DNA from: Acholoe squamosa
Lineage: Eukaryota; Annelida; Polychaeta; Phyllodocida; Polynoidae
Length of the DNA: 64,000 nucleotides
Assembly: GCA_949317995.1 (NCBI GenBank)
Contig: OX439045.1
Location: forward strand, 7,851,174-7,915,173
Direction: 5' to 3'
Shown: positions 1-51,920 of the stretch, in pieces
Layout of the letters: each line of letters begins with the position of its first letter
Numbering within the stretch: the first letter of the stretch is position 1
Program-made: the position numbers and the translations under genes
Notes under the pieces: model-generated
Databases searched by the model: none
What the model saw: only the letters and a program-made list of their open reading frames with translations
Told to the model about the DNA's origin: nothing

Positions 1-1058
1 CTCACCAGGGCTACATTTATGAGTTACTCACCAGGGCTACACGTATGAGTCACTCACCAGGACTACATGTATGAGTCACTCACCAGGGCTACATGTATGA
101 GTCACTCACCAGGGCTACATGTATGAGTCCCTCACCAGGGCTACACGTATGAGTCACTCACCAGGGCTACATTTATGAGTTACTCACCAGGGCTACATGT
201 ATGAGTCACTCACCAGGGCTACATTTATGAGTTACTCACCAGGGCTACATGTATGAGTTACTCACCAGGGCTACACGTATGAGTCACTCACCAGGGCTAC
301 ATTTATGAGTTACTCACCAGGGCTACATGTATGAGTCACTCACCAGGGCTACATGTATGAGTCACTCACCAGGGCTACATGTATCAGTCACTCACCAGGA
401 CTACATGTATCAGTCACTCACCAGGGCTACATGTACAAGTCACTCACCAGGGCAACATGTATGAGTCACTCACCAGGGCTACATGTATGAGTCACTCACC
501 AGGGCTACACGTATGAGTCTCTCACCAGGGCTATGTGTACGAGTCTCTCACCAGGGCTACATGTATGAGTCACTCACCAGGGCTACACGTATGAGTCTCT
601 CACCAGGGCTACATGTACGAGTCTCTCACCAGGGCTACATGTATGAGTCTCTCACCAGGGCTATGTGTACAAGTCTCTCACCAGGGCTACATGTATGAGT
701 CACTCACCAGGACTAGATGTATGAGTCACTCACCAGGGCTACACGTATGAGTCACTCACCAGGGCTACATGTATGAGTCCCTCACCAGGGCTATATGTAT
801 GAGTCCCTCACCAGGGCTACACGTATGAGTCACTCACCAGGGCTACATGTATCAGTCACTCACCAGGGCTACATGTATCAGTCACTCACCAGGACTACAT
901 GTATGAGTCACTCACCAGGGCTACACGTATGAGTTACTCACCAGGGCTATATGTACAAGTCCCTCACCAGGGCTACACGTATAAGTCACTCACCAGGGCT
1001 ACACGTATGAGTCACTCACTAGGGCTACATGTATGAGTCACTCACCAGGGCTACATGT
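1..1058 (+). repeat. 26-bp satellite (CTCACCAGGGCTACATGTAT type)
   Basis: About 40 head-to-tail copies of a 26-bp unit with variants at ACATG/ACACG/ATTTA and GAGTCA/GAGTTA. The array starts before the window. Its right edge runs directly into a fragment of the palindromic GCATCATG MITE (to about 1160), and the unit itself resembles that MITE's internal segment GAGTAACTCACCAGGGCTGC. This suggests the array grew from the MITE. Confidence 0.95.
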
Positions 1059-1439
1059 ATACATCATGACGCCTATGGGCATGTTCCATGAATGCAGCCC
1101 TTATAACTTACTCTCCAGGGCTGCATTCATGCATCATGCCCATTGGCTGCCATCAGTTAAACAAGGTAATATACCCAATACATGGGTGCACAATCTGCAG
1201 ACAGGGACGTGTACCGATGGCACAATGCGGGTTTGAATGGTGTCTGGGCCAAGAACAGATGTCGTAAATAGATCTATTAGATGAGTAATAGAGACGAGCC
1301 ATCACCATGGAAACAGATGGTATAATTATACCTGTCTGATTACGGAGCCAATTAACTATTTCGCAAAAGCCTGCATAGAATTTAAATGCCTGGCATAGGG
1401 CCTAGGCATAGGATGTCTTTAGTTGTCATGATGTGCTAC

Positions 1440-1744
1440 GGGAGTGATCATTTTTTAACAACGGGGGGGGGGGAGGGGCTGGTGGGTTGGGGGGGGGGCA
1501 GATATTTCTCTCGGGGAGGGGGGGGTCGAAATAATTTCACCTGTTTTCAGTGAAAAAGCCTGCACCTCTCTATAGGTTAAAAGGGCACGTTTGTGAGCAA
1601 TTTTCGTCCCCTATGGGTGTGGGTAGGTGGGGGGGGGGGGTAAAAATAATTTTACCCTTGAGAGGGGGGGGGGCAAAATTTTGTTCATGCATCCACGCAC
1701 AAACCCACCAGTCCCCCCCTGTTGTTAAGAAAATGATCACTCCC
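1440..1744. mobile_element. GGGAGTG MITE, copy 1
   Basis: 305-bp element with inverted termini (GGGAGTGATCATTTTTTAAC against GTTAAGAAAATGATCACTCC) around G/C-homopolymer-rich DNA. The flanks TAC/TAA are a degraded 3-bp duplication. Other copies lie at 15408, 42281 and 61094. The 3-bp TTA duplications of two copies suggest a PIF/Harbinger-like source. Confidence 0.8.
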
Positions 1745-1819
1745 TAATGAAGTGCCAGCTCAAGCAATAGCGGCCCCCCTCTTTTCCACCTGCGGCCTAT
1801 GGGTCTAAATTCCCTATCT

Positions 1820-2385
1820 CTTTAAGGGCTGCTAATGCATTAATCAGGGGTGTGAAATCCCAAAACCCATTTACTCTGAAGTGTAATATATGGCTTGCTA
1901 GTTAATGCTTTTATGTAGGATAAAGCTTAATTAAAGTGATTTAAATGGTGTTTGGGCAAAATATAACAACACTCTGATGTACAGGGATGTTTGGAATTAC
2001 AATTGGGAGGCCAACAATTCTCAATCTTGAATGACATTGGCAGAAATTCCAAGTCAGACCCCCCCCCTACAAATGGTAATTTCTTTTTTCACTGGATTTG
2101 CATAATCTCAAGAATGGTCTTTCTGAGCACCAAAAACGCGGATTTCCGCGGAGATTTCACACCCCTGATTAATCCATCGGGTCCATTGGTCGTCACGATG
2201 CCAGGGCTACACTCAATTTGAAGCATCATTCCAACCCTACAGGTTTGATACACTCCCAGAGTGTGGGCATGATGCTGCAATGAAGAGCTGGCGAGCACTT
2301 CATTGGTGCATCATGACAACTGTGCATCATGACAACTATTGGGCATGATGCACCCCTGCATTAGCGGCCCTTAAAGGGTCATACC
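1820..2385. mobile_element. Palindromic GCATCATG MITE, copy with nested insertion
   Basis: Ends resemble CTTTAAGGGCTGCTAATGCA on the left and TGCATTAGCGGCCCTTAAAG on the right. The inside carries the family's landmarks CACTTCATTGGTGCATCATG and GCATGATGC. A CAGGGGTGTGAAATC element (1845-2167) is inserted near its left end. Confidence 0.8.
1845..2167. mobile_element. CAGGGGTGTGAAATC TIR element, 6-bp TSD ATTAAT
   Basis: 323-bp element with terminal inverted repeats CAGGGGTGTGAAATC / GATTTCACACCCCTG. It is flanked by exact ATTAAT at 1839-1844 and 2168-2173 and is inserted in the palindromic MITE. No coding capacity, so it moves non-autonomously. Confidence 0.85.
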
Positions 2386-2815
2386 GTAAATTCTAGCGAA
2401 ACTCAAAGTGCGGCTTATAGGTGTAGCCCAAAGTAGGGGTGTGGCATATACAAGGCTATTTAGGACTATCGGGCTTCCCTAGCCCACTTAAAAGGGTCTA
2501 AATCTCCGCTTTCCTATCCCCTCGGGATGTGTGTAGTGCACATATGCGCGGCCGCTGACACATTCCTTTGTGAAATTGTGCAGTTTAGTAGTTCTCGCCA
2601 TAAATATGACCTTGGCTGTCGAAATGGCATTAAACATCTATTACTCACTCTCACTATTTAGGACTATGAAACAGTACTGGTTGTGCTTAACCAATTGTCA
2701 GGCCTCAGGTGCTGCCCATAGGCTTCTCCTAAAGTCAGGGTGCGGCTTTATTATACAACGGTGTGGCTTAGACAAGGGAATTTACAGTAGGGGGATGGTA
2801 CTTGGTGCACAGGAG
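2385..2815. mobile_element. Type-B (TACCGTAAATT/GCGGCTTAT) element split by a SINE
   Basis: Starts with TACCGTAAATTC at about 2384 and ends in a degraded form near 2790. The inside holds GCGGCTTATA motifs. The SINE at 2470-2653 interrupts it. The type-B family recurs across the window at about 6010, 7292, 9100, 16740, 17484, 18435, 19840, 22325, 23330, 24670, 50590 and 63885. Confidence 0.6.
2470..2653 (+). mobile_element. SINE-like retroposon, tail type 1
   Basis: 184-bp insert starting CGGGCTTCCCTAGCCCACTT and ending TTAAACATCTATTACTCACT plus a CTCAC-type tail. It is flanked by a perfect 14-bp duplication CTATTTAGGACTAT (2456-2469 and 2654-2667). Long duplications and a simple-repeat tail are the marks of LINE-driven retroposition. 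A convincing tRNA head is not visible. Confidence 0.85.
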
Positions 2816-3235
2816 CCCAGTGTGTTACTGTATACATAAGAACTGCTACCCAGGGCCCTGGTCGCCTGTCACACCCCAGTGCACATCCAGGTCAGTCTGG
2901 GACCCCTTCATGCATGTGGTCTGGTGACCAGCTTTACCACAACTCAGATATACAACCCCCTCAACCTGCCACTGCCCCCCCCCCCCTCACCTTCACCACT
3001 TTCCACTATGGAGACTGCCTGTGGAGGCCACCCAGCTGTCCCCAGGTTGGTGCCTCCTATGTATACACGATATGCTTCTAATGTGGATGGACTAGAATCA
3101 ATATTTGCCATTTATATACAACACCCATGTCCCTAATTTCAAAGGTGGAACCACAGACCTGAAAGACCTGTGGTGGAACTTGGGACGGAGGCAGGGGAAG
3201 GATTTTTTGCCAAAGGTGACCCTTGAATCTGGGCA

Positions 3236-4660
3236 GAACTGGGTACCATCAGGACCCTTAACTAGTTGTGGCAGGAATCTGGGTAGGACTAGGTACCATC
3301 AGGACACTTACCTAGTTGTGGCAGGAGTCTGGGTAGGACTAGGTACCATCAGGACCCTAACCTAGTTGTGGCAGGAGTCTGGGTAGGACCAGGTACCATC
3401 AGGACCCTTACCTAATTGTGGCAGGAGTGTGGGTAGGACTAGGTACCATCAGGACCCTTTCCTAGTTGTGGCAGGAGTCTGGGTAGGACTAGGTACCATC
3501 AGGACCCTTTCCTAGTTGTGGCAGGAGTCTGGGTAGGACTAGGTACCATCAGCACCCTTACCTAGTTGTGGCAGGAGTCTGGGTAGGACTAGGTACCATC
3601 AGGACCCTTACCTAATTGTGGCAGGAGTCTGGGTAGGAATAGGTACCATCAGGACCCTTACCTAATTGTGGCAGGAGTCTGGGTGGGACTAGGTACCATC
3701 AGGACCCTAACCTAGTTGTGGCAGGAGTCTGGGTAGGACTGGGTACCATCAGGACCCTCACCTAGTTAAGGCAGGAGGCTGCTAAGCACTAGGTACCATC
3801 AGGACCCTTACCTAATTGTGGCAGGAGTCTGGGTAGGAATAGGTACCATCAGGACCCTTACCTAGTTGTGGCAGGAGTCTGGGTAGGACTGGGTACCATC
3901 AGGACCCTTACCTAATTGTGGCAGGAGTCTGGGTAGGAATAGGTACCATCAGGACCCTTACCTAGTTGTGGCAGGAGTCTGGGTAGGAATAGGTACCATC
4001 AGGACCCTTACCTAATTGTGGCAGGAGTCTGGGTAGGAATAGGTACCATCAGGACCCTTACCTAGTTGTGGCAGGAGTGTAGGTAGAACAAGATACCATC
4101 AGGACCTTTACCTAGTTGTGGCAGGAGTCTGGGTAGGACTAGGTACTGTCAGGACCCTTACCTAGTTGTGGCAGGAGTCTGGGTAGGACTAGGTACTGTC
4201 AGGACCCTTACCTAGTTGTGGCAGGAGTCTGGGTAGGACTAGGTACCATCAGGACCCTTACCTAGTTGTGGCAGGAGTCCGGGTAGGACTAGGTGCCTTT
4301 AGGACCCTTACTAGTTGCGGCAGGAGTCTAGGTAGGATTATGTGCAATCAGGACCCTTACCTAGTTGTGGCAGGAGTCTGGGTAGGACTAGGTACCATCA
4401 GGACCCTTACCTAGTTGTGGCAGGAGTTTGGTTAGGACTAGGTGCCTTTAGGACCCTTACTAGTTGCGGCAGGAGTCTAGGTAGGATTATGTGCAATCAG
4501 GACCCTTATCTAGTTGTGGCAGGAGTCTGGGTAGGACTAGGTACCATCAGGACCCTTACCTAGTTGTGGCAGGAGTCTGGTTAGGACTAGTTGCCTTTAA
4601 GACCCTTACCTAGTTGTGGCAGGAGTCTGGGTAGGACTAAGTACCATCAGAATCCTTGCC
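3236..4660 (+). repeat. 50-bp satellite
   Basis: About 28 copies of a 50-bp unit containing GGTACCATCAGGACCCTTAC and TAGTTGTGGCAGGAGTCTGG. Variant units (GGTGCCTTTAGGACC, ATGTGCAATCAGG) recur in order near 4300 and 4440, so a multi-unit block was duplicated recently. No link to a mobile element was found. Confidence 0.95.
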
Positions 4661-5314
4661 TATTTCTGGACAGGGTTAATCCAGGCCTATAAAAGTTTGT
4701 CTCTCCCCAGGGGTTCTTGCCATATTTGATTTGATTTGATTTGTTTTGACTTTTATTGCAACAATTTATGCTACTTCCGTCACAAAATTTCATCAAGTTA
4801 AAATACAACAATATGTACAAAAACATTCTTTCATAACAATAGTTGGCTGATGATTTAGACATTTCATCCTAAAATATAGCAGCATTTTGAGTGTCTATTT
4901 CCTAAGCGGGATAGTAGAGGAATAAACTAGATGTTAGATGTTGGCTAATCCGTTGGGAGCACTAAAGCGACTGTGGGGAGTAGGTGGGAGGGAGACGGGT
5001 GGAAAGCCTGAGGGGGGAATTTCAACAAGTTGTCACAGAATTAAACGATCCTCCCATGGGGTCATGAATCTACCCTTTACCCCTCCCCTGCCCTCACCAT
5101 ACTATCAACACCTTGATACATGTACATGTAATACCCCGGTACTCCCACGGTACCAGTTTAGGCTACCGTAAAACCCCACATAGAAGCCACACCCTGAGTT
5201 TGAGAGAATGCTGAGTGAGATGGTTGCCATTCCTCCCCCCGGGGGAGGGGGTGGATGGGGAGGGACACTTAATTTTCTACTGACACGGGTGTGCGGCTGG
5301 ACCTGTGACTACCC
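4661..5314. other. No gene seen; short repeat fragments
   Basis: Mixed unique DNA with a GATTTGATTT run at about 4723 and a type-B end (TACCGTAAAACCCC) at about 5165. A homopolymer C/G stretch lies at 5235. No coding exon with splice signals was recognised. Confidence 0.5.
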
Positions 5315-5665
5315 TTACCCTTGGTGAGAGGGATTTTCACCAGAAGTGAAGCTTGCTGAGAGGGATTCTTTTGCCAAAAGTGACCCTTGCTGAGAGGGAT
5401 TTTTGCCAAAAGTGACCCTTGCTGAGAGGGTTTCTTTTCGCCAAAAGTGACCCTTGCTGAGAGGGATTTTTTTGCCAAAAGTGACCCTTGCTGAGAGGGA
5501 TTGTATTTTGCGAAAAGTGACCCTTGCTGAGAGGGATTTTCACCAAAAGTGACCCTTGCTGAGAGGGATTTTCACCAAAAGTGACCCTTGCTGAGAGGGA
5601 TTTTTTTTTTTGCCAAAAGTGACCCTTGCTGAGAGGGATTTTCACCAAAAGTGACCCTTGCTGAG

Positions 5666-5696
<31 letters not shown>

Positions 5697-6155: not shown

Positions 6156-6180
6156 TTTATAATACTGTAAAAACCCTGGA

Positions 6181-17800: not shown

Positions 17801-18109
17801 CCCTGAAGCGGCACCAGATGCATGGAAATTTCAATTTTAGTGCTAATCTATAGCATCAAGACTCGGGTACTAAACAACTGTACCAGATTGCACCATTTGG
17901 CCTCTAGATGTTCAAAAATTTCTTGGGCTCCTGGGGGATGCCCCCCCCAGACCCCCATTATATTCACAAACATCCTTTTCCAAGTGTATCTTGTGCCCTT
18001 GAATACCCTATATTGAGACTTCAAAAATCTTCCTACATTTGGGCGATTTTCAAATCACATCCCTGATAAGGTGCGGCTTATATGCCGAGTTTGAGGGTAC
18101 ACATCGATA

Positions 18110-18345
18110 TATCATGGCCATTGGTCAGCATGATGCATGAATGCAGTCCGGGTGAGTAACTTGCCAGGACTACATTCATGCATCATGCAGACCCTACGGG
18201 GTCAATACACAAACTCCTGGAGGGTCGGCATGATGCACCAATAACATGCTGGCGAGCAGACTCACCAGCACTTCATTGGTGCATCATGACGACCAATGTT
18301 CGTGATGCATTAATGCCTCAGCGGCCCGTAACGGGTTAAGCGTTT
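18110..18345. mobile_element. Palindromic GCATCATG MITE copy
   Basis: Contains CATGGCCATTGGTCAGCATG, GGTGAGTAACTTGCCAGG, CACTTCATTGGTGCATCATG and the right end CAGCGGCCCGTAACGGGTTA. Typical order of the family. Confidence 0.85.
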
Positions 18346-24423: not shown

Positions 24424-25740
24424 GCCGTAATCTCCTGCTTATAAGGTGCATCCCACATATACGATGCACCTAGAGTTTAAGAATATATGGTAAAAATAAT
24501 AAATTCAAACCTTTTGTTCTACTGAATGGATTTTTCAAATTTCAAAAAGCTATGTGGAGCTAGGGTCCCCTGACATAGGGGGTTCCAACCTAAGTCTACA
24601 TTTATGGATCACGTCAACAAAGGATCATTATGCATTAATAATGCATCATACCTATTGCTTAGGCCATCATGCAATTGAGGGTATTTGGTACTATAGAACA
24701 GTACTCAACCCACTATTTTCAATCTCCAGATACACCTTATAAGGAGGGGTGCGGCTTATATGAGGGGTGTGGCTTATATGAGGGGTGCGGCTTATATGAG
24801 GGGTGTGGCTTATATGAGGGGTGTGGCTTATATGAGGGGTGCGGCTTATATGAGGGGTGTGGCTTATATGAGGGGTGTGGCTTATATGAGGGGTGTGGCT
24901 TATATGAGGGGTGTGGCTTATATGAGGGGTGTGGCTTATATGAGGGGTGCGGCTTATATGAGGGGTGTGGCTTATATGAGGGGTGTGGCTTATATGAGGG
25001 GTGTGGCTTATATGAGGGGTGCGGCTTATATGAGGGGTGCAGCTTATATGAGGGCTGCGGCTTATATGAGGGGTGCGGTTTATATGAGGGGTGCGGCTTA
25101 TATGAGGGCTGCGGCTTATATGAGGGGTGCGGCTTATATGAGGGGTGCGGCTTATATGAGGGTTGCGGCTTATATGAGGGTTGCGGCTTATATGAGGGGT
25201 GCGGCTTATATGAGGGTTGCGGCTTATATGAGGGGTGTGGCTTATATGAGGGGTGCGGCTTATATGAGGGGTGTGGCTTATATGAGGGGTGCGGCTTATA
25301 TGAGGGGTGCGGCTTATATGAGGGGTGTGGCTTATATGAGGGGTGCGGCTTATATGAGGGGTGCGGCTTATATGAGGGGTGTGGCTTATATGATGGGTGT
25401 GGCTTATATGAGAGGTGTGGCTTATATGAGGGGTGCAGCTTATGAAGGTTGCGGCTTATATGAGGGGTGCGGCTTATATGAGGGGTGCAGCTTATGAAGG
25501 TTGCGGCTTATATGAGGGGTGCGGCTTATATGAGGGGTGCAGCTTATGAAGGTTGCGGCTTATATGAGGGGTGCGGCTTATATGAGGGGTGCAGCTTATG
25601 AAGGTTGCGGCTTATATGAGGGGTGCGGCTTATATATGAGGGGTGCGGCTTATATGAGGGGTGTGCTTATATGAGGGGTGCGGCTTATATGAGGGGTGCA
25701 GCTTATGAAGGTTGCGGCTTATATGAGAGAATTTACGGTA
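24424..25740. mobile_element. Type-A/B element whose interior expanded into an 18-bp array
   Basis: Begins TGCCGTAATCTCCTGCTTAT, includes the shared core GGTACTATAGAACAGTACTC at 24688, and ends with the type-B terminus TATGAGAGAATTTACGGTA at 25722-25740. Between them lies the 18-bp array, so the array is inside the element. Confidence 0.75.
24742..25735 (+). repeat. 18-bp array GAGGGGTGCGGCTTATAT x ~54
   Basis: Head-to-tail 18-bp units with C/T variation (GTGCGG/GTGTGG). From about 25430 a 52-bp higher-order unit (18+18+16, marked by GAAGGTTGCGG at 25444, 25496, 25548, 25600) is repeated. Because 18 is a multiple of three, long open frames exist, but they are by-products. Confidence 0.95.
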
Positions 25741-26107: not shown

Positions 26108-26400
26108 ACATGATAATGTATTAATGCAGCCTTGGTGAATAGATTCACCCATGCAGCATGAATGCAGCCTTGGTGAGTAAATCACATATGCAGCATGAAT
26201 GCAGCCTTGGTGAGTAAATCACCCATGCAGCATGAATGCAGCCTTGGTGAGTAAATCACCCATGCAGCATGAATGCAGCCTTGGTGAGTAAATCACCCAT
26301 GCAGCATGAATGCAGCCTTGGTGAGTAAATCACCCATGCAGCATGAATGCAGCCTTGGTGAGTAAATCACCCATGCAGCATGAATGCAGGCCTGGCAAAT
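26108..26400 (+). repeat. 37-bp array GCATGAATGCAGCCTTGGTG
   Basis: About seven copies of a 37-bp unit (GCATGAATGCAGCCTTGGTG then AGTAAATCACCCATGCA). The unit equals the left inner arm of the palindromic MITE (GCATGAATGCAGCCCTGGTG, AGTAACTCACC). Confidence 0.93.
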
Positions 26401-26439
26401 AGATTTACTAGGGCTTCAATCCCATGATATTGATACACA

Positions 26440-28836: not shown

Positions 28837-29219
28837 TCTGCAGGTTTGTTGCTATTTTTGTGCAGATCTCTGATTCTCGAGATACGACTCTTGAACTGTT
28901 TTGTTTGACTCTTTTGGTACCAACCATCGAGGTTATCCCATAGTTTGATGCCCCTGCACCAAGGTGAACATTTGTAAAAATCCCTTATAGGACGCTTAAC
29001 ACTAAAGCGAACCTTGTGTGTACTGCGTGTAACTCTTTCTTCAGGGCATGGCATATATAAGTGTTTGCCAGTATTTGGAACACTATTTTGCCTCTCATGT
29101 AAAACTTGAAAAATTCATTTATGCATGCCTTCACACTCAGGGTGCGCCTTATACGCAGGATGCCTCTTGTACGCGAGGTATAAGTTACAGTACGTCCATT
29201 TCATTAATCCTCTAAGGGT

Positions 29220-29660
29220 GGCAGATGCAGAAGTGCATCATGGCCATTGGTCATAGGGCTCGACAAATCCCTGTGTCCAGTGCCTGGGAGGCAAGTTATT
29301 TTTCAAGTCGTGCCCATTGGACACATTTGCCAAGCCAGGTTTATACAGAGAATTAAAGGACTGGGTACAAAACATTTCCCTGCTGGACACAACTTGATTT
29401 CTCATTGTGCCCAGTGGATACAATGATTCAGAACTGATTTGTGGAGCCCTGGGTCAGCATGATGCACCAATGAAGTGCTGGCAAGACTGCTCGTCAGCAT
29501 TTCATTGGAGCATCATGCCGACACTACAGGGTCAATACATAAACTCCCAGAAGGTCGGCATGATGCTCCAATGAAGTACTGGCGAGCAGTCTCGCCAGCA
29601 CTTCATTGGTGTATTATGCCGACCATTAATGCATCAGCGGCCGTTAAAGGGTTAATGGGG
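29220..29660. mobile_element. Palindromic GCATCATG MITE copy with nested insertion
   Basis: CATCATGGCCATTGGTC on the left, then the 29254-29451 insertion, then GCATGATGCACCAATGAAGT, CACTTCATTGGTGTATTATG and the end CAGCGGCCGTTAAAGGGTTA. Confidence 0.85.
29254..29451. mobile_element. CAGGGCTCGACAAATC-type element, short copy
   Basis: 198 bp, left end (T)AGGGCTCGACAAAT and right end ATTTGTGGAGCCCTG. GGTCA flanks both sides (29249-29253, 29452-29456). Inserted in the palindromic MITE, whose intact sequence GGTCGGCATGATG is known from other copies. Confidence 0.8.
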
Positions 29661-30334
29661 GAGGTATGGTAATGGTGACCGTGTACGTGGGAAGGAGTTG
29701 GGACTCCTGAAAGCAGAAACAAAATTGAGGACTGCTACAGTTCTTGGATAACATCCAACACCATTTATCAAGTCTATCCTGAGGCATTGTTCCTGTTCAT
29801 ATTAAAAACCTCTGAACAGGTTAACTTCTTTTATCAACTACCACTATATATTCTCTTTAAGGCAGTGTAGCCGTAAAACAAATCTCAAAGCAGGCCAAGG
29901 TGGCCTGCGTTATGGCATATTATGTAGGCCATTTCTATCTAACGCAGGCCATATGAATATTGATGTTTTAAGGTTCCCATGTAAAAGTCATTGTAGTTCA
30001 GGAAAAATCAGGAAATGTCTGAATATATAAATCAAATTCTCAAAAATTGCCCTATTTGAAAAGTTCTTTCACCATTAGAAACCTAAGATCATGCCAGGTC
30101 ATTGTGGCCTGCATCCAAAGGGCCTAACCAGGCCATTTAGATTGTACACTGGCTTTTTCCTACATGCCTTCATATTGGTCCATTCATGCAACACGATAAC
30201 AAGTGGACATCACCACGGGATTAACCTGTCTTTACGGTGATACTTGTAAAACGTATCGTTTGAATAAACACTTGTCTAGTATAATGAGGCGGGGTACAGG
30301 GGACTCAAAATCATCTCATTGAAGACCGCTAAGG
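29661..30334. other. No gene seen; GGCCTG short repeats
   Basis: Several GCAGGCCA/TGGCCTGC motifs at 29893-30140. CAGTGTA/TACACTG at 29866 and 30147 might be ends of a 280-bp element, but no duplication flanks them. Confidence 0.35.
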
Positions 30335-30545
30335 AAAGAGTGCATCATCTCCATTGATGGTTATGATGCAATGAAGTGCTGAAAAGTGAACTTACCAACA
30401 CTTCATTAATGCATCATGCCGACCCTCTGAGAGTGTATCAACCCCGCGGGGCTGTCATGATGCCTGAATGTAAACCCTGGCGAGTAACTCGCCAGGGCTG
30501 CATTCATGCAACATGATGAGCAATAGGCATGGTGCATTGATTCAA
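30335..30545. mobile_element. Palindromic GCATCATG MITE copy
   Basis: Contains TGATGCAATGAAGTGCTG, CACTTCATTAATGCATCATG, and the inner hairpin CCTGGCGAGTAACTCGCCAGG. Confidence 0.85.
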
Positions 30546-30959
30546 TATGGAGCCCAAGTCTCGTGATAAACTATGTCGTAAAAAAATTTCTGATTTGGAA
30601 TTAAAATGACCAATATTTGAATTGACCCGGAGGCCCACCATATATGAAATTTTAAGGCTCAACTCTCATTCTTAAAAAAGTTATGCTAGGCCTAAAATAT
30701 TCCCCTATCCTTTAAGCCTGCGGGCGATAATATGCTGAGCTCAGAATCCGCCCGCATGTGATGTGACTTCGCCTCCCTGTATAACTTATAAGTCTTTTAA
30801 AGGTTGAGCAGGGCCTCAGCATATTTTGGACAGAGATAAATACAAAGATAAAAAAACCCAAAAAACTGTACAAACAGACATACATCCTGGCCAGTGATGA
30901 GCGAGAGTCGTGACTCGCTGAGTCGTCAAAACATGTATAACCATTCTTATACCTCTTAA

Positions 30960-31165
30960 GGGCCTCATGATGCCTCCAGGTTCATGTTCCTTTGTACTCA
31001 CCACTACTGCATTGATGCATCATGATCTAGACGGGACACAGCATTGAGCCAGTCTGCCCCTCAGCACTCGTTGAAAATTTCTTTTGCATCATTGCGAGTG
31101 TATCGATCCCATAGGGTTGGCGTGAGGCACAAATGCAGCAGCGATGAGTTACTCGCCAGTGCTGC
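30960..31165. mobile_element. Palindromic GCATCATG MITE copy, seed of the next array
   Basis: TGATGCATCATG and TGAGTTACTCGCCAGTGCTG followed immediately by the first GCTGCATTCATGCATCATAC unit. Confidence 0.75.
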
Positions 31166-32370
31166 ATTCATGCATCATACTGACGCTACAGGGCTGCATT
31201 CATGCATCATACACTGACCCTACAGTGCTGCATTCATGCATCATAATCCGACCCTACAATGCTGCATTCATGCATCATACTCTAACCCTACAGTGCTGCA
31301 TTCATGCATCATACTGACCCTACAGTGCTTCATTCATGCATCATACTGACCCTACAGTGCTGCATTCATGCATCATACTCCGACCCTACAGTCCTGCATT
31401 CATGCATCATACTCTGACCCTACAGTGCTGCATTCATGCATCATACTCCGACCCTACAGTCCTGCATTCATGTATCATACTCTAACTAACCCTACAGGGC
31501 TGCATTCATGCATCATACTGACGCTACAGGGCTGCATTCATGCATCATACTCTAACTAAACCTACAGTGCTGCATTCATGCATCATACTCTAACTAACCC
31601 TACATTGCTGCATTCATGCATCATACTCTAACTAACCCTACAGGGCTGCATTCATGCATCATACTCCGACCCTACAGTGCTGCATTCATGCATCATACTC
31701 TGACCCTACAGTGCTGCATTCATGCATCATATTCTAACAAACCCTACAGTGCTGCATTCATGCATCATACTCTAACTTACCCTACAGTGCTGCATTCCTG
31801 CATCATACTCTAACTAACCCTACAGTGCTGCATTCATGCATCATACTCCGACCCTACAGTGCTGCATTCATGCATCATACTCTGACCCTACAGTGCTGCA
31901 TTCATGCATCATATTCTAACTAACCCTACAGTCCTGCATTCATGCATCATACTCTAACTAACCCTACATGGCTGCATTCATGCATCATACTCTAACTTAC
32001 CCTACATGGCTGCATTCATGCATCATACTCTAACTTACCCTACATGGCTGCATTCATGCATCATACTCTGACCCTACAGTGCTGCATTCATGCATCATAT
32101 TCTAACTAACCCTACAGTCCTGCATAATACTCTAACTAACCCTACAGTGCTGCATTCATGCATCATACTCTGACCCTACAGTCCTGCATTCATGCATCAT
32201 ACTCCTACCCTACAGTCCTGCATTCATGCATCATACTCTAACCCTACAGTGCTGCATTCATGCATCATACTCTAACTAACCCTACAGTGCTGCATTCATG
32301 CATCATACTCTAACCCTACAGTCCTGCATTCATGCATCATACTCTAACTAACCCTACAGGGCTGCATTCT
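31155..32370 (+). repeat. 30-38-bp array GCTGCATTCATGCATCATAC
   Basis: About 35 units, GCTGCATTCATGCATCATAC plus a variable spacer (TGACCCTACAGT, TCTGACCCTACAGT or TCTAACTAACCCTACAGT). The unit is the inner right arm of the palindromic MITE plus its CTGACCCTACAGG spacer. Confidence 0.95.
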
Positions 32371-32679: not shown

Positions 32680-32900
32680 TGCTTATCTCGCCAGGTGCCA
32701 GATCAAGCAATGGCGGCCCCACTAGGCCTCCATACTGAGCCCTATAGGTCCTGTATACATCAAAGTAGGAAGGGTCATGTTCTTGTCATGTTGTCATTAT
32801 GTACCAGTGCAGATCTGGCGAGTAACTCGCCAGCACTGCATTAATGCATCATGCTGATCTTATATAAGATTGATGCACTCCTGGAAGGAAGGTTTGATGC
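32680..32900. mobile_element. Palindromic GCATCATG MITE fragment
   Basis: TGGCGAGTAACTCGCCAGCA then CTGCATTAATGCATCATGCT and a TTGATGCACTCCTGG segment. The ends are unclear. Confidence 0.7.
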
Positions 32901-33199
32901 AGTAAAGGCGAGTTACTTACATTCTATGCCTAGCAGACAAGATGGCGAGTGTGTTTTGGAGACTTTAAGAAAGGAATTTGGAGTTTGGTGGTTGGGGGGT
33001 ATCTATAAGGGCAATTTATGATACCCTTCTGCGTATAAGATGTAGTGCACGTATAAGACGCACCTAGAGTTTTGGATTATGCTAAAAAAAAATTAAAAAT
33101 TCATAACTTTTCTTCTACTGAATGGATTTTTAAAATTTAAACATCGATGTGTAGCTTAAACCCCCTGGACCCCTATGCCATATTATAACTTACGGGTAG

Positions 33200-39769: not shown

Positions 39770-42025
39770 AGTATAGGATAGGTCAGTCCATACAGTCCTA
39801 TAGTGAAGGCCAACCCCCCTTTACCCCCCCATGAAACTAGGTGACCTTGTGTGTTCAGTATTGGGCCCTATATAGGATAAGGGGGTTTATGGAGCTATCA
39901 TGTATCTTCCTGAAAGGGATACCAAATGAAATGAAGAGACCATCTAAGCCAAAAAATCCTGCTGAATCCAAAAATGTTGGTCTTTCTTATCAAAATTTGA
40001 CCAAAAGTACCCGAAAATGATGTTTGATGAGGGGAATACTTTTAAAAATGTACAAAAATGATATTGAAAATGATTGCAAATCTTTAAATATAGAACACAT
40101 AAATCAGAGTTAATACCTCAATCCACATACCCAAATGTCTGCCTTTCTCTCAGTCAGGCAAGTTCTGGGCCTGTGCATTACTCTGCCTATCCCACATACA
40201 GCATATCAATTGTGTACCTATCACTCATCCTGCCTATCTCTTCAATCTGAAACATTGACAGTTCAATCTGGTTATCTCTTAAAAGGCCTAACTTATAATG
40301 CTTACCCCTCACCTTACCTTATCTCATTTGTTCCTTCTTTCCTTTAGTCTACCTATCCTCAATCTGCCTATCATTCATTTTACCTATCCCTCATGGTGAC
40401 TATCCCTCAGACCATCATGTTTAATCTGCGCTGTTTGTCTGCTATATAAGCCTTTATTGTTTAACGGTACATTCCTTACCATGTCTACTATTTCAATTTT
40501 ACCTATCCCTGATAATGCCTATCATGTAGCCTACCTATCCCTCATTGTGCCTATCCCTCAACTCTGCACATCCCTCATATTTGACTTGCATATCTGTCCC
40601 TAGGATGCATGTTTTTTTTGTTGTTTTTTTTTACGTTTGCTCATCTTACAAGGTACTCTGTGCCTATTCCTTAAATTGCTAATTGCTCATACTGCCTATC
40701 CCTCTTGCTACCCATCCTTACCTATCCCCCATGCACTCTATACAGCTCTCTTACCCATCTCACCTCTCTTACCTACCTATGTCACAACCAACCTTCATTA
40801 TGATGACCATTTCTTAGTCACCTTAACATACTGGTTACAGTCCACCTTATTTATACATCTACCTATCATTCATGCTGCATATCTTTCAGTTTACCTATAT
40901 AATGATATGAATGGAGGATAGGCATAATGGGGGATAGGTATATTTCACAAGGCATAGACCTGGAGACAGGTGGAAGAAATTGAACACAAGCTGAGATATG
41001 TATAGAGAGAGCGAGTTAGATTGACTGAGCTGACCTGGTAAGAAAACCATATGGACAGCATGAGGGATAGGTATTCAAAAGGATTGGTAGCAAGGGGGAT
41101 AGGTAGCATGTGCAATATCTAGTTTGAGGGATAGGCACAGGGCGTACCTTGTAAGATGAGCAAATGTAAAACAAGAAAACATGGGTGGTAGTGACAGATG
41201 GGCAAGTCAAATATGAGGGATATGCAGAGTTGGGGGATAGGTATAATGAAGGATAGGTAGGCTTTATGATAGGCATTGTTAAGGATAGGTAGGATCAAAA
41301 TGATAGACATGATAAGCAATGTAACTGTTAACCATTAGGGCCTAAATAAACAGATGAACAATACAGTTTAAACATGGTGGTCTTAGGGATAGTCACATGA
41401 GGGATAGGTAAAATGAATGATAGGAAGACTGAGGATAGGTATACTATGGGAAACTTGGACCAGAGAAGATTAGCTAAAGTAAGGAGTAAGCTTTAGTATC
41501 TAGGTCTTTTGGGAGATAGCCTTACTTCAAGATGCTTTAGATTTAAGAGATAGGCAGTATGAGTGATAGGTAGACTAAGGGATAGGCAGTATGTGAGATA
41601 GGCAGAGTAATGCACAGTTAGAATACTTGTCAAATTGGGAGATAGGCAGACATTTGGAAATGTGCATTGAGGTACTAACTCTGGTTTATGTGTGTCTATG
41701 AAGACTTCTCATTATTTTGAATATTATTTTTGTACATCTTTAAAATATTTTCTTCATCAAACCTCATTTTCGGGTACTTTTAGTCAATTTCTGAGAATCA
41801 TGATAAAAAATTTGGATTCATCAGGATTTTCTGGTCCAGGTGGTTTCTTCTTCCCCTTTAGTATCACCCTGATAAAGGAATACCACAGCTCCATAAACCA
41901 CCTAATCCTCTACAGAAATCAACAATGAAAACCCAGGGGCACCTAGTTTCATGGGGGGGTAGAGGGGGGTGGCCTGTCACACTCTACCCATAGACTATGC
42001 TCTCAGTGACCTCTCCTATAGTATA
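39770..42025. mobile_element. 2.2-kb foldback element
   Basis: Two ~1.1-kb inverted arms meet near 40930. Left landmarks CCATGAAACTAGGTGACC, CCCGAAAATG and CCAAATGTCTGCCT are matched on the right by GGGCACCTAGTTTCATGG, CATTTTCGGG and GGCAGACATTTGG in mirror order. Inner halves consist of degenerate 18-20-bp CTATCCCTCAT..TGC units (left) and their complement (right). No coding frame was found. Confidence 0.85.
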
Positions 42026-43733: not shown

Positions 43734-44590
43734 CCGTAATCTCTCGCGTATAAGGCGTAGCTCGCCTATAAGGCACATCCCCAACTCAGGGACATCTGTT
43801 ATAATGTATAAGGCGCACCTCTGAGGGCAGATTTTTCTTAATTTAGTACTGTTCTATAGTAAAAAATACCCCCCCTACCGTAATCTCCCGCGTAGAAGGC
43901 GCGTCTTCTACGCCAAACAAAATGCTGCTGGGTCTTATACGCGGGAGGTAAATTGCCTTGAGTTTGGGGTGCGCCTTATACGCGGGTTTTTCCAACATCT
44001 CATTTGGGAAAATGCGCCGATGACAGCTTGAACTCATAGCGCCAGCACCACGGCAGACCGGGAGCTGTCGACGCACTCGCCGGGGATAAGGCCCACCATG
44101 CGCCGATGACAGCTTGAACTCATAGCGCCAGCACCACGGCAGACCGGGAGCCGCGACGCGCTTGGCGGGTTCAAGCCGACCGTGTGCCGATGACAGCTTG
44201 AACTCATATAGCCAGCAGCGCGGCAGCCCGGTCGCTGTAGATTTGCTCGGCGGGGAATACGCCCACCATGCGCCGATGACAGCTTGAACTCATAGAGGTG
44301 GGTGGGGAGGGGGGGCGCCTTCTACGCAAAACAGCCCCCCTGTGAGTTGGGGGGGCGCCTTATACGCGGGTTTTTCCGGAAATCGATCCAGAATAGGTAC
44401 GTGCGCCTTCTACGTGAAAAGGCCTCCTCTGAGTTGGGGGGGCGCCTTCTACGCGAGCTGCGCCTTCTACGCGGGAGATTACGGTATAAGGCGCACCCCA
44501 AACTCAAGGCAATTTCCCTCCCATGTATAAGACCCAGCAGCATTTTGTTTGGCCTATAAGACGCGCCTTATACGCGGAAGATTACGGTAG
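43734..44590. mobile_element. Nest of type-A MITEs
   Basis: At least three TACCGTAATCT-type left ends (43734, 43877) and right ends (AGATTACGGTA at 44475 and 44578). An 86-bp tandem repeat sits between them. The order of insertion cannot be resolved by eye. Confidence 0.75.
44014..44300 (+). repeat. ~86-bp tandem repeat x 3.3 inside the MITE nest
   Basis: GCGCCGATGACAGCTTGAAC recurs at 44014, 44100, 44184 (variant) and 44270. The unit also holds AGCACCACGGCAGACCGGGA. Much more GC-rich than its surroundings. Confidence 0.9.
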
Positions 44591-45625: not shown

Positions 45626-46589
45626 TTTGTCTTTAAAAGATCGCTAAATAGGCCTAAAATATCGCTAGGTTGGTATAATAGACTCTACACATTAATATAA
45701 GCTGAGAGACCCTTAGACCACCTGTCATTTTATTCCATAAGGTCAGCGTGATGCACCAATGCATTTATTTTTCCTTAAAAGATCGCTAAGTTGGTGATAA
45801 CTTTGTTCCCATTGTGCATATTTGAAAATAAAGACCGCCATGACGTTCGCCAGCTCGAGCTACCCTTTATCTATAGGTCACACTATGCGAAACTCCTATT
45901 ATTAAGGGAGATACGATTTATTTTGTAAAACTGCCAGTTCTTGGACCTCTCTGCCAGTGCCTGGACTGGCGTCTGCCCCCGCGTCCCAAAAAAGCCTATA
46001 TTTCGATCCATTCCTTCCTCAAACCTGCCCTTTTTCGCCGGTGACACTTAAAACAGATCGGTTTTGGCTGGAGGTAGGGCACAGGTGGACCAGCTCAGGC
46101 CGAAAAGGCCGCAAGTCAAAAAAATTATTTCGCTTATTCTTTTCTGAAACAAATTTTTGAGGGGGGCATGTCCTTTAGGGGGACGAAACACCCCAGATTG
46201 ATACCAAACATTCCATATCCGCGCATATTATTTGCATAATTAGCATAATTATGCAGTATCTTGGTACTGTTCAATACAATATAGCTATGTTCCATTGGTC
46301 CCTTATAGAATTCATATGCTTGTAAGTATAAACTATTGACTGCACCTAGTGACTAGTGGAATCTGAACAGTAGAAAAGAAAGACCCCTCCTCTACCTTTG
46401 TATAGCATCAAACAAGTTGTTCAATGGAGGCAGCCATTGCTTGATCACATGCTTAAACCTTTTAGATCCAAATGCTAGTTACCAGTGCATTATCACTGTT
46501 GATAAGCTTCACACATCAATACCTGCGCAAGCCCTGTTTGCACTGAATGGATCTTTAAAAAGATTAATGGCATTTTAATCATTTGTGCA
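45626..46589. other. No gene seen
   Basis: Unique intronic sequence. AAAGATCGCTAA occurs at 45636 and 45778 with an intervening segment, perhaps a small duplication. Confidence 0.4.
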
Positions 46590-48700
46590 TCATGCCCAGA
46601 TTGATATGATGCACTCACATTTTGTCAGTAATTAGTCAATATATGTCAGAAATAATGCATGATTTGTCAGCAATTAGTCAATATATGTCAGTACTTAGTC
46701 ACTGAATATCACCAATTATCAATACATGTTAGTAATTACTCACTATTTGTCAGCAATTAGTCTATATGTTAGTAATTGCTCACTATTTGTCAGCAATTAT
46801 TCAATATATATTAGTAAATACTCACTATCTGTCACAGTTAATCAATATATGTTAGTATTTACTCACTATCTTTAAGCAATTAGTCAATATATGTCAGTAC
46901 TTAGTCACTCTATAACAGCAATTATCAATGCATGTCAGTATTTACTCACAATCTGTCAGCAATTAGTCAATATATAACAGAGAAATAGCCACTGATTCAA
47001 TTATGCATCCTGCCTTGACTGGTATTTGTCAAAATATGTCAGTATCTATGGACTATTTTTAGTTAATATATGTGATAAAAGAAAATATTCCCAAAACCCT
47101 CCTCGGGTTTTATTTTCCCAGAAATTATAACTCTTTGAGGCAAAGTATGGTCTGAGTGTCAACGTTTCGAGTTAATATATATTAGTAATTATTCACTATT
47201 TGTCAGCAATTAGTCAATACATGGTAGTAGTTACTTACATTTTATCAGCATTTAGTCAATATATGTTGGTAATTGCTCACTATTTATCACGGGCTTCCCT
47301 AGCCCACTTAAAAGGGTCTATATCTCCTCTTTCCTATCCCCTCAGGATGTGTGTGGTGCACATATGCGCGGGCACTGACACATTCCTCTGTTAAATTATC
47401 AACCTGTGAAGCACGGGATAGCCACTTAGTGCCGCTAAAGTGCTGTGAAACACAAATCAATCAATCAATCACTATTTATCAGCAATTAGTCTATGTTAGT
47501 AATTGCTCACTATTTGTCAGCAATCATTCAATATATATATTAGTAATTACTCACAATTTGTCAGCAATTAGTCAATATATATCAGTATTTACTCACACTT
47601 TGTCAGCAATTAGTCAATATACGTCAGTACTTAGTCACTCTATATCAGCAATTATCAATGCATGTCAGTATTTACTCACAATCTTTCAGCAAATAGTCAA
47701 TATATAACAGAGAAATAGCCATTGATTCAATTATGCATCCTGCCTTGACTGGTATTTGTCAAGATATGTCAGAATCTTTGGACTATTTGTCAGCAATTAG
47801 TTAATATATATTAGTAATTATTCACTATTTGTCAGCAATTTGTCAATACATGATAGTAGTTACTTACATTTTATCAGCATTTAGTCAATATATGTTAGTA
47901 ATTGCTCACTATTGACTAATATCTGACAAATTGTGAGTAATTACTGACATATATGGACTAAGTGTTGTTTTATAATGACTAAGTACTGGCATATATGTCA
48001 GTACTAAGTGACTAAATATCAGCAATTAGTCAATATATGTTAGTAATTACTCACTATTTGTCAGCAATTAGTCAATATACATCAGTACTTAGTCACTGAA
48101 TGTCAGCAATTATCAATACATGTCATTATTTACTCACAATCTGACAGCCAATAGTCAATATATAACAGAGAAATAGCCATTGATTCAATTGTGCATCCTG
48201 CCTTGACTGGTATTTGTCAAGATATGTCAGTATCTTTGGACTATTTGTCAGCAATTAGTTAATATATATTAGTAATTATTCACTATTTGTCAGCAATTAG
48301 TCAATACATGATAGTAGTTACTTACATTTTATCAGCATTTAGTCAATATATGTTAGTAATTGCTCACTATTGACTAATATCTGACAAATTGTGAGTAATT
48401 ACTGACATATATTGACTAAGTATTGTTTTATAATGACTAAGTACTGGCATATATTGACTGATTGCTGACAAATAGTGAGTAATTACTGACACATATTGAC
48501 TAATTGCTTACAAAGAGTGAGTAATTACTGACATATATTGACTAATTTCTGATAAATAGTGATTAATTACTTACATATATATTGACTAATTGCTGACAAA
48601 GTGAGTAATTACTGATGTATATTGACTAATTGCTGTTATACAGTGACTAAGTACTAACATATATTGACTAATTGCTGACAAATAGTGAGCAATTACTCAT
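46590..48700. repeat. AT-rich ~42-bp array with orientation flips
   Basis: Units such as GTCAGCAATTAGTCAATATA and GTTAGTAATTACTCACTATT. Orientation changes near 47914, 47991 and 48369 (reverse units read ATTGACTAATTGCTGACAAA). A larger block starting GAGAAATAGCCATTGATTCA recurs at 46981, 47711 and 48171, i.e. a ~460-bp higher-order period. A SINE interrupts it at 47290-47470. Confidence 0.9.
47290..47470 (+). mobile_element. SINE-like retroposon, tail type 2
   Basis: 181 bp. The first ~110 bases match the SINE at 2470 (CGGGCTTCCCTAGCCCACTT to GACACATTCCTCTG). The tail instead reads GTGCCGCTAAAGTGCTGTGA and ends (AATC)n. ACTATTTATCA duplications lie at 47279-47289 and 47471-47481. Confidence 0.88.
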
Positions 48701-48895
48701 CCGATCATAAGTACATAAATCTAGATGATACGACCAAGCAGCTATTACAGCAATGCTGTATTTCTTTATCGAAATATAATATCCAATCATAAGTACACAA
48801 ACCTAGATGATACGACCGAGCAGTTATTACAGCAATGCTGTATTTCTATATCGATATATATTAAATGATCATAAATACATAAATCTAGATTAAAG
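48700..48895 (+). repeat. ~84-bp tandem repeat x 2.3
   Basis: ATCATAAGTACATAAATCTA then GATGATACGACC and TTACAGCAATGCTGTATTTC, repeated once fully and once in part. Confidence 0.88.
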
Positions 48896-50095
48896 AGTCA
48901 TGATAATGATCATTGAGTCATGATAAAGAGTATAGAATCATGGGAGTCCTCGTTGGTACATCATGCCTTGACTGGTATAGTCAAAATATGTCAGTACCTA
49001 TGCACTATTTGTCAGCAATTAAAATGTGTCGTAATTATGTACTATTTGTTAGCAATTAGTCAAAACATGTCAGCACTTACTATTTTTCTGCAGTTAGTCA
49101 TTATATGTCAGTAATTATGCATTTTTTGTCAGCAATTAGTCAAAATATGTCAGTAACTATGAATGAATGAATTACTGAAAGGACTTCATCATGGCCTAAG
49201 TGGTCTAGGTCATGGTCTAATGATTTCAATAGATGACCTATTGGTCTAAATTTTAGCGAGAGGGAACCTATTCAAATATTCTAGTCATCAACTTTGGCAA
49301 AATAATTCATCACAGCTATGCTGTGCTTTCCTCAAGGTTTTCCTCAAGTCATCAAAAACAGGCTTCCTCGTACTGGTAGGTCAGGTACTAAGGTATGTAT
49401 TTTGAAGTTAGACTAGATTCCCACTTGTGGCATAGTAACAGCCATTAGAATTGGCAAGGGTCTTAAGCTCGTCTACCCTCTATTGTCAAGGCCCATAGAG
49501 TAGTATATTCATGTAAAAAAAATGATCTGAGAGTTAATTATATAACCAGGATACTGGTTCATGTGTCTCTCACCCTGTTTCTGCACAACAAAATGCTATT
49601 GATGAGTCACTTAAGAAGTATATATATACACAGCCAGAACTATATTAGTCTCCATTTTTGGTGCAAAAGTAGACTTGTCTAGAGATACATGGCTGGACGC
49701 AGAGAGAGATACAAAGAGAGAAAGCAGATAGCATAGACCAAGGGACCCATTTAAAAAGGCAATTTGCTGCATTTTACAGGAATTTCCTTATTTTTAATCC
49801 TGGATTTTATCCATCAATTACATCGAATTCCTAGAGGAAATGGACCCGTACTGGAAGATGTGGAGCTACTGAGGGAGAGAAGTAGACATAGACGCCACTT
49901 CTCCTAACTTTTTGGGAATTCCGAATCTTTGGCTGTGATTCCTAAAATCATTTCCCATCGGAAAAAAATTGGGATAATTTCCGAAATATCAGAGACTAGT
50001 GAGAAGAGATGGTGATACCTGTTCTATTGATACCTGAGGTATATTATCATATTACGCAAAGTCTATTATCATATTCTTATACGCAAATCTGAGGC
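48896..50095. other. No gene seen
   Basis: The end of the 42-bp family recurs weakly to 49160. The rest is unique intronic DNA. Confidence 0.4.
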
Positions 50096-50334
50096 ATACC
50101 GTATTCATTCTAATAAGCTCACGTGTGGAAAATGAATTGTTAGATGCTGAATTCCTTAAAAATTAATTCTAATAAGCGCACCCCCTAATGCCATAAAATG
50201 GTTGTTTCTGCCCTAAAAAGTCTTTATTTTTACACATCTTTTATGTAAATTGACATCAGGGGGGTGCACTCATGACCCCAAAAAGAGGGTGTGCGCTTAT
50301 TAGAGCATGTGCCCTTATTAGAATGATACGGTAT
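50096..50334. mobile_element. Type-D (ATACCGTATTCATTCTAATAAG) MITE
   Basis: 239 bp, ends ATACCGTATTCATTCTAATA / TATTAGAATGATACGGTAT with internal TAAGCGCACCCCC and TGTGCGCTTATTAGAG sub-repeats. Confidence 0.85.
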
Positions 50335-50589
50335 TGCACCTTAAAGAACTTACCAAAATAGAGGGTGCGCCTTACAGCAGAGATTTCACACCCTCAGAGT
50401 CAGAGCTTGATCTATTTTCAGAGATTCAGAGGCCCATAAAATTTAGACTTCCGTGCAGTAAGTAGAGACATCCTTGCACTTGTGGAATGTCAATGGGCCC
50501 TAAAATTTTCTGTTATAGGTTGGATATATTTGATATAGAAAAGTACTAGAGGTGGCCAAGATCAAGCCCAAGTAGCACCTTATAGCTTG

Positions 50590-50890
50590 TACTATAAAAT
50601 CCCTCGTATTAGCCGCACCCTGATGTTAAGAGGAGGCTATAAGCCGCATCTGGGGCTTGAAGATGGAGAGTTTAGTACTGTTCTATGTTGTAAAAACCCC
50701 TCTCATAAACCGCACCCTGACTTTGGGCTGAACCTATGAGCCTCATTTTGATCTGGGATTTATTTTCCGTCTCAGATTTTAGAGTGATTTCTGAACTCAG
50801 TCTGGTTTTTTTTATACCGGTATTCAAAAATACCCTAGTCAGGCGAGTGTGGGTTCTGGTATAAGCTAAAGTGAGACAATTTACGGTACT
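50590..50890. mobile_element. Type-B element
   Basis: Left ATAAAATCCCTCGTATTAGC, right GTGAGACAATTTACGGTA. Several AGCCGCACCCTGA sub-repeats and the core GTACTGTTCTATGTTGTAAA. Confidence 0.7.
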
Positions 50891-50894
50891 CAGG

Positions 50895-51920
50895 GTATGT
50901 CTTGTAGAGTCGGCATGATGCACCAGTTACTGCTGACATATATCATGTAGAGTCGGCATGATGCACCAGTCACTGCTGACATGTATCATGTAGAGTCGGC
51001 ATGATGCACCAGTCACTGCTGACATGTATCATGTAGTCGGCATGGTGCACCAGTCACTGCTGACATGTATCATGTAGAGTCGGCATGGTGCACCAGTCAC
51101 TGCTGACATGTATCGTGTAGAGTCGGCATGGTGCACCAGTTACTGCTGACATGTATCGTGTAGAGTCGGCATAATGCACCAGTCACTGCTGACATGTATC
51201 GTGTAGAGTCGGCATGGTGCACCAGTCACTGCTGACATGTATCGTGTAGAGTCGGCATGGTGCACCAGTTACTGCTGACATGTATCGTGTAGAGTCGGCA
51301 TGGTGCACCAGTTACTGCTGACATGTATCGTGTAGAGTCGGCATGGTGCACCAGTCACTGCTGACATGTATCGTGTAGAGTCGGCATGGTGCACCAGTCA
51401 CTGCTGACATGTATCGTGTAGAGTCGGCATGGTGCACCAGTCACTGCTGACATGTATCGTGTAGAGTCGGCATGGTGCACCAGTCACTGCTGACATGTAT
51501 CGTGTAGAGTCGGCATGGTGCACCAGTCACTGCTGACATGTATCGTGTAGAGTCGGCATGATGCACCAGTCACTGCTGACATGTATCGTGTAGAGTCGGC
51601 ATGGTGCACCAGTCACTGCTGACATGTATCGTGTAGAGTCGGCATGGTGCACCAGTCACTGCTGACATGTATCGTGTAGAGTCGGCATGATGCACCAGTC
51701 ACTGCTGACATGTATCGTGTAGAGTCGGCATGATGCACCAGTCACTGCTGACATGTATCGTGTAGAGTCGGCATGGTGCACCAGTCACTGCTGACATGTA
51801 TCGTGTAGAGTCGGCATGGTGCACCAGTCACTGCTGACATGTATCGTGTAGAGTCGGCATGGTGCACCAGTTACTGCTGACATGTATCGTGTAGAGTCGG
51901 CATGGTGCACCAGTTACTCG
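50895..51920 (+). repeat. 43-bp satellite GTCGGCATGATGCACCAGTC
   Basis: About 24 copies of GTCGGCATGRTGCACCAGTC followed by ACTGCTGACATGTATCGTGT and AGA. GTCGGCATGATGCACCA is an exact segment of the palindromic MITE. The left units carry ATCATG, the right ones ATCGTG, so the two parts were homogenised separately. Confidence 0.95.

Follow-up and report, generated by a model that had tools for sequence, protein, structure and literature searches.

Tandem arrays made of different segments of one hairpin-bearing MITE in the genome of the polychaete Acholoe squamosa

Satellites born from miniature inverted-repeat transposable elements (MITEs) and from transposable elements (TEs) at large are treated in two reviews (PMC12628747, PMC9659126), and passages of the latter report 'a number of different types' of such satellites in Messor ants. 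Coral piggyBac MITEs form tandem arrays, and the paper describing them also cites Xenopus arrays of partial piggyBac-MITE sequence (PMC2872659). Tandem arrays derived from one MITE of the polychaete Acholoe squamosa are described here. They were analyzed in a stretch of 64,000 nucleotides (the window; contig OX439045.1, or C11, positions 7851174–7915173 of assembly GCA_949317995.1), and then in the whole assembly, which measures 1.48 Gb in 63 contigs. The MITE occurs in numerous copies. Different segments, which together make most of the element, became tandem units of ~18–97 bp, and several arrays reside inside MITE copies. The element, a non-coding sequence of 262 nt, apparently of the piggyBac type, with long terminal inverted repeats (TIRs) and two hairpins, is rather likely to be a hot spot for local tandem duplication.

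Structure of the element and arrays of the window

The MITE consensus was built from 20 further genome copies. It measures 262 nt and includes a 5' inverted repeat (1–49), hairpin A (50–112), a spacer (113–149), hairpin B (150–213) and a 3' inverted repeat (214–262); the outer 49 nt at each end form a perfect inverted repeat. The order of the modules varies, as in a B-spacer-B copy found at 29.2 kb of the window. The termini read CCCTTT...AAAGGG beside TTAA. TTAA is found at both ends in 9/20 copies and at one or both ends in 16/20, CCC in 11/20 left ends, GGG in 13/20 right ends. The rule given for piggyBac terminal motifs is CC[C/T]T (PMC2872659), and the target-site duplication of this superfamily is TTAA; TTAA flanks and terminal motif fit a piggyBac-type MITE, as far as sequence features tell. 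Like MITEs in general, the element is short (below ~500 bp), ends in inverted repeats, is present in many copies (4,746 candidates in the genome at first look) and is non-coding, the longest open stretch in the consensus being 59 codons. Folded as single-stranded DNA it reaches -147.2 kcal/mol, against a shuffle mean of -40.2 (z -30 for the whole element), whereas a control element devoid of self-folding has a z of -0.9.

Tandem arrays were located by Tandem Repeats Finder (TRF), which gave 65 rows in the window, and 33 units were picked for comparison with the MITE. Each unit was rotated, aligned on both strands to a MITE reference, and scored against 200 dinucleotide shuffles. The reference used in this test, assembled from window copies, had the spacer in the wrong orientation; units were retested with the genome-consensus reference and 40 shuffles, and module references were also made. 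An initial annotation of the window had recognized four arrays, each repeating a different piece of the same MITE. All four are in place according to TRF, and the MITE score of each, as that of a fifth array missed at that time, was reached by 0/200 shuffles (z 5.9 to 10.7 for the five). The same arrays pass with the genome-consensus reference (z 5.2 to 7.8). None of the other 28 window units stood at 0/200 shuffles. The next closest, with the first reference, are an 81-bp unit at 58746 (1/200) and a 16-bp unit at 40910 (4/200). A 2-copy duplication of 16 bp (2306–2337) also passes with the consensus reference and 40 shuffles (z 5.1). The 86-bp unit at 44012 was not counted as MITE-derived; it had 0/40 shuffles but a z of 2.9 only, and 24/200 with the first reference.

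Array 1 (1–1060, no strand assigned, left end outside the window) consists of 40.8 copies of a 26-bp unit corresponding to hairpin A, apex offsets -4 to +21. MITE sequence carries on at its right side, in a minus-strand remnant made of the 5' end and hairpin A (1061–1160). Array 2 (26108–26421, plus strand) has a 37-bp unit, corresponding to the left arm and apex of hairpin A (A-29 to A+7). The array spans 26123–26389 according to TRF (37 bp x 7.2) and terminates in a degenerate full hairpin; the MITE match of its flanks is not significant. Array 3 (31157–32369, plus strand) is made of the right arm of hairpin A and the start of the spacer, and starts within a minus-strand MITE remnant featuring half of B, the spacer and hairpin A (30995–31184). 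Two arrays had been said to abut MITE remnants, and they do, array 1 on the right and array 3 on the left. The 34 units of array 3 measure 34 bp (15 units), 38 bp (14), 32 bp (4) and 30 bp (1), and the 32-bp form aligns to the MITE without gaps. Many of them hold CTAACCCTA, which looks telomere-like; beside neighbouring units it reads, by eye, as an altered spacer start GACCCTA. Array 4 (50895–51919, minus strand; TRF span 50903–51918, 43 bp x 23.7) has a 43-bp unit made of the right arm of hairpin B and the start of the spacer. It is the weakest case, as the unit aligns to the B arm and the spacer with gaps, and MITE sequence is in neither flank according to the edge test described below. Array 5 (60441–60524, no strand assigned) includes 4.0 copies of a 21-bp unit, the tip of hairpin A (A-10 to A+10). 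It is carried by a plus-strand MITE half comprising the spacer, hairpin A and the 3' TIR (60413–60568), and has MITE sequence on both the left and the right.

In all, 5/22 window arrays of at least 3 copies are MITE-derived, the MITE making 4.09% of non-array DNA (binomial P 0.0017, in a window picked for this feature). The sequence GCATCATG is present 39 times in the window, 2.9 being expected. Units at the edges are not more MITE-like than middle units in arrays 1–3, and weakly so in array 4 (P 0.04). MITE likeness follows a one-way gradient along arrays 1 and 3 (rho -0.47 and -0.42).

Genome-scale counts and variety of units

Tandem pairs were counted in the 1.48-Gb genome as a 14-nt word of the A arm found twice on the same strand, with 2–62 nt between. 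A-arm pairs are 4,934 (1,829 + 3,105), and none was found in the genome with the pattern read backwards. Single A-arm words gave 31,727 matches (14,833 + 16,894; backwards 1). Pairs of a B-arm word are 2,870 (1,444 + 1,426; backwards 0). The word GACAGCTAAGGTCAT of the control element is found 15,739 times as single (7,782 + 7,957), and 50 times as pair (15 + 35). The ratio of pairs to singles is 15.6% for the A arm of the MITE vs 0.32% for the control, a 49-fold difference which is approximate, since single-word counts are lower bounds and some places of the pair list (e.g. near C1:2151k) are not in the single list. A different control word, GGTGCGCCTTATAC, was unsuitable, being present more than once in its own element, and was left out. 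These counts, far above those of one control element, bear out the statement that one MITE family seeded many different arrays.

Among the matches listed (the first 100 pairs each, all from the start of contig C1), A-arm pairs fall into 22 loci, B-arm pairs into 12. Scaled up, these figures correspond roughly to ~1,085 A-arm and ~344 B-arm loci. All 50 control pairs amount to 23 loci, and 22 of the 50 rows are one array. The 100 listed A-arm pairs, out of 4,934, lie in the first 4.94 Mb of C1, where ~16 would be expected if pairs were evenly distributed, and the density of single A-arm words is raised only ~1.7-fold there. Arrays may be more frequent at chromosome ends, judging from the one end seen. 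A word from the foot of hairpin B had 0 matches in a scan of viral contigs.

The periods of the listed A-arm pairs (C1:0–4.94 Mb) are 18, 27, 28, 34, 43, 44, 48, 60, 62, 64, 69, 71/72, 73 and 75–77 bp. In the B-arm list (C1:0–8.19 Mb) 11/12 loci are arrays or duplications of 21–76 bp; the remaining one, C1:7294k, was excluded as not an array. Altogether, 36 units were mapped on the consensus, 5 from the window, 1 from a random genome sample, 16 from the A list, 11 from the B list and 3 from the flanks of MITE copies, the L007 unit being mapped from 90 of its 97 letters. A-arm loci 2305k, 3350k, 4000k, 4780k, 4802k and 4934k were left unmapped, their unit type being already taken. Loci 1305k, 4441k and 6568k correspond to single pairs, as do 1826k (pair list), 2316k, 3912k and 4868k of the A list. 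For 24/36 units the alignment spans the entire printed unit, or all but one base. The units jointly cover 229/262 bases of the MITE: 40/49 in the 5' TIR, 63/63 in hairpin A, 37/37 in the spacer, 64/64 in hairpin B, 25/49 in the 3' TIR. At the loci seen, arrays measure ~80 bp to 2.4 kb and are scattered; they seem nearer to minisatellites than to satellite DNA, whose arrays are long (kb to Mb) and mostly heterochromatic or centromeric.

The random sample consisted of twenty 10-kb stretches, drawn from 12 contigs and landing on 11. In these 200 kb, 15 arrays of at least 3 copies were found, one of which is MITE-derived (L031 2573–3864, 42 bp x 31), and the MITE makes 1.07% of non-array DNA. Compared with this sample, the window is exceptionally rich, as it contains 4% MITE and five MITE arrays. 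Of the 8 best MITE matches, which are not a random sample, 3 (L002, L007, L008) have MITE arrays within the 3 kb around them. Sizeable arrays of 32 and 42 bp, not obviously MITE-derived by eye, are found in random genome stretch L050 (8130–10000 and 1713–2640). In L052 a 32-bp array (CCCTACAAGGACTCTTTGTCCACAATGTGTCA, 1–390) adjoins, by eye, a MITE copy bearing the 48-bp array of C1:2151k.

Flanks, breakpoints and origin of the arrays

Up to 150 bases outside the arrays were compared with the MITE, taking 60 shuffles and 400 random genome stretches as background. The test covers 32 edges of 18 arrays (two edges for 14 arrays, one edge for 4). MITE sequence was found outside the array at 16/32 edges. 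Of the 14 arrays examined on either side, 6 have it at both edges. Four arrays have it at one edge; among the latter, array 1 of the window (w1) and 4935k were tested at one edge only, and 514k is borderline (19/400 background stretches as high). Both features of MITE-derived internal tandem repeats of the Xstir/Tetris kind, a unit derived from the element and flanks made of it, were thus found for part of the arrays. By eye, C1:4780k reads TIR-B-spacer-A-[34-bp array]-TIR, C1:7578k reads TIR-A-[24-bp array]-spacer-B-TIR, and the array at C1:6487k lies within an otherwise ordered MITE. An array inside an ordered MITE copy is what in-place tandem duplication predicts, and MITE sequence on both sides of six arrays argues for birth inside MITE copies, rather than for rolling-circle reinsertion.

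Unit periods were compared with the self-homology of the MITE (P 0.0022 over 15 periods; P 0.0001 counting A-list loci). The 34-, 71- and 72-bp units, which account for 7/22 of the listed A-arm loci, coincide with the three best self-matches inside the MITE in the period range 15–80. Other units have little homology at the join (scores 0–5). Births seem to be of two kinds, one guided by homology and recurrent, the other varied, with little homology at the join. Microhomology as a general rule was set aside (Fisher over 16 contiguous units, P 0.10 for all starts, 0.018 for all periods, 0.93 for nearby starts).

Arrays may originate as follows. While being replicated, or while a break is repaired, a MITE copy would stall or fold; the nascent strand, or the broken end, would then re-engage that copy at a site close by, so that the intervening stretch is duplicated. 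Long internal direct repeats would let the 34-bp and 71/72-bp units form repeatedly, joins with little homology being used elsewhere in the MITE. From two copies an array could then grow through slippage or unequal exchange. A minority of the units would spread to other loci. That the element duplicates often because it folds strongly, a role assigned to the hairpin in the initial annotation, is plausible given the fold values above, the comparison resting on one control family that does not fold. Slippage or rolling-circle amplification had been proposed together; the latter is disfavoured for arrays embedded in MITE copies, and may apply to stand-alone arrays. The chances are about even that the self-folding MITE works as a general satellite generator, in which almost any stretch of 18–97 bp can be born in place as a tandem unit, with perhaps at least 1,000 loci, dozens to hundreds of unit types, and mostly separate births.

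Several results weigh against a duplication hot spot. No MITE sequence was found beyond the edges tested in 8/18 arrays. The contrast in pair counts involves one control family only; the 15.6% ratio may be too high, single-word counts being lower bounds, and with loci counted instead of pairs the contrast drops to ~23-fold, a figure extrapolated from the start of C1. One MITE-derived array out of 15 in 200 kb of random genome is too few to show enrichment by itself, and no MITE array was seen by eye in three further stretches (30 kb). Breakpoints were analyzed in 11 A-list units mapping in one piece (186k, 663k, 1826k, 2316k and 4868k, which do not, were left out), requiring the anchor inside the unit and mirroring boundaries where needed. 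Array breakpoints had been expected to cluster at hairpin feet. This was not borne out, as unit ends near the feet are 6/11 vs 3.66 expected (P 0.09). Unit ends near the apex are 4/11 vs 5.64 expected (P 0.92), and a hot spot at the apex, which inspection by eye had suggested, was rejected on this result. When each unit type is entered once, the relation between period and self-homology is only marginal (P 0.046), and it is lost without the 34/71/72-bp units (P 0.77).

Further observations concern the number of births. By eye, the 43-bp unit at C1:3317k and 4935k has a common derived GTTACC variant in different flanks, the 48-bp unit at 2151k and 2305k a common odd junction in different surroundings, and a 69-bp unit is found at both 607k and 3350k. 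Some loci are probably not separate births, and a minority of units probably spread between loci, judging from these variants. They would also suit a scenario with few births, in which transposition or recombination carried a small number of array-bearing MITE copies, each of single origin, to the many loci. This is unlikely, given that the 22 listed A-arm loci comprise ~14 unit types, to which the B-arm list adds ~10, and that embedded arrays lie at different places in differently arranged MITE copies. The independent births claimed at the outset stand for the different pieces that grew within separate MITE copies and still have MITE sequence to the left and right, and not for the 43-bp and 48-bp units common to two loci each. 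Amplification of excised MITE pieces as rolling or extrachromosomal circles, followed by reinsertion, would account for C1:607k, 186k and the left side of 514k, which have no MITE flanks, and is quite improbable in view of the six arrays enclosed by MITE sequence.

The MITE might also be unremarkable, if every abundant repeat gives rise to arrays in a genome rich in them, and their clustering in the window is due to chance. In favour of this are the 18-bp array at 24744–25727, which comes from another dispersed family, the 17/22 window arrays of at least 3 copies and the 14/15 arrays of the random sample which are not MITE-derived. The explanation is doubtful, tandem pairs per word being 49-fold fewer in the single control family for which genome-wide counts were made. 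Capture of pre-existing satellites by the MITE (array first, MITE second) has been proposed for miDNA4 in Xenopus, in the passages describing it (PMC12628747). Here it is hardly credible, the units being pieces of the hairpins, spacer and TIRs of the MITE itself, a coverage poorly compatible with capture. Local tandem duplication within MITE copies is the explanation preferred.

Other repeats of the window and relation to described systems

Dispersed MITE copies mark the window. The fullest one, A-spacer-B, is at 18101–18339 (plus strand). Others are at 2160–2400 (plus; it bears the 2-copy 16-bp duplication), 30319–30547 (minus), 55539–55749 (plus) and 63669–63856 (plus). The B-spacer-B copy (29204–29655, plus) is interrupted by an insert at ~29254–29447, the copy at 61396–61715 (plus) by one at ~61490–61668. 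Copies formerly noted near 18110, 55545, 61438 and 63655 are real. A MITE half made of the 5' TIR and hairpin B resides at 60141–60235 (plus), and a fragment with no strand assigned at 32790–32901. The insert at 61490–61668 belongs, by eye, to the control-element family, other members of which lie near 2470 and 47289. At 46613–49161, 21/42-bp repeats (TGTCAGCAATTAGTCAATATA) in both orientations make up a large complex with long inverted repeats, which has no significant match to the MITE in the 200-shuffle test. The 18-bp array at 24744–25727 (GAGGGGTGCGGCTTATAT, ~55 copies) has a unit matching 10 dispersed window loci of another repeat family; the MITE is thus not the only element that seeds arrays. 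Kinase-like and SH3-like coding pieces were recognized by eye.

How a satellite gains its initial two or three copies is difficult to trace, most satellites being old and homogenised. In A. squamosa a single short sequence was tandemised many times and the source element is often still around, so that origin, breakpoint and growth can be compared over replicates. Arrays per element copy are a measurable trait, by which it can be tested whether self-folding DNA is exceptionally prone to tandem duplication. MITE-born satellites are already known; the number and variety of those stemming from one MITE is the new part. In a literature search in which most subscription papers were out of reach, no report was found of one MITE yielding units from most of its parts at this scale.

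In the passages describing them, several systems resemble the one reported here. CMITE of Acropora corals is a piggyBac-type TTAA MITE forming tandem arrays, for which slippage is proposed; unlike the arrays of A. squamosa, those of CMITE are made of full-sized elements (PMC2872659). The printed 60-bp consensus of CMITE does not match the MITE described here (87/200 shuffles as high). Tetris/TIR-220 of Drosophila virilis is a foldback-like element whose internal repeats became satellite arrays, but one 220-bp unit, located in the TIR, is described (PMC4079207). In Lathyrus sativus nine satellites have been traced to short tandem arrays in LTR retrotransposons, and there, differently from here, the source is retrotransposons with short arrays already inside (PMC7004042). 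The miDNA4 MITE of Xenopus tropicalis (Scalvenzi & Pollet 2014), as reported in passages of the two reviews, likewise carries arrays of variable length inside the MITE, their expansion being ascribed to short direct repeats of at least 5 bp. It differs in being a Tc1/mariner MITE with a single monomer, which is proposed to be a captured repeat (PMC12628747, PMC9659126). The Xstir/Xmix MITE of Xenopus (Hikosaka & Kawahara 2004), termed piggyBac-MITE in PMC2872659, gave rise to arrays from internal MITE sequence, and occurs in MITE, array and composite forms (PMC12628747, PMC9659126), as does the element of A. squamosa. Xstir/Xmix makes one repeat family in the passages describing it, whereas dozens of unit types, drawn from most parts of the MITE, are found here.

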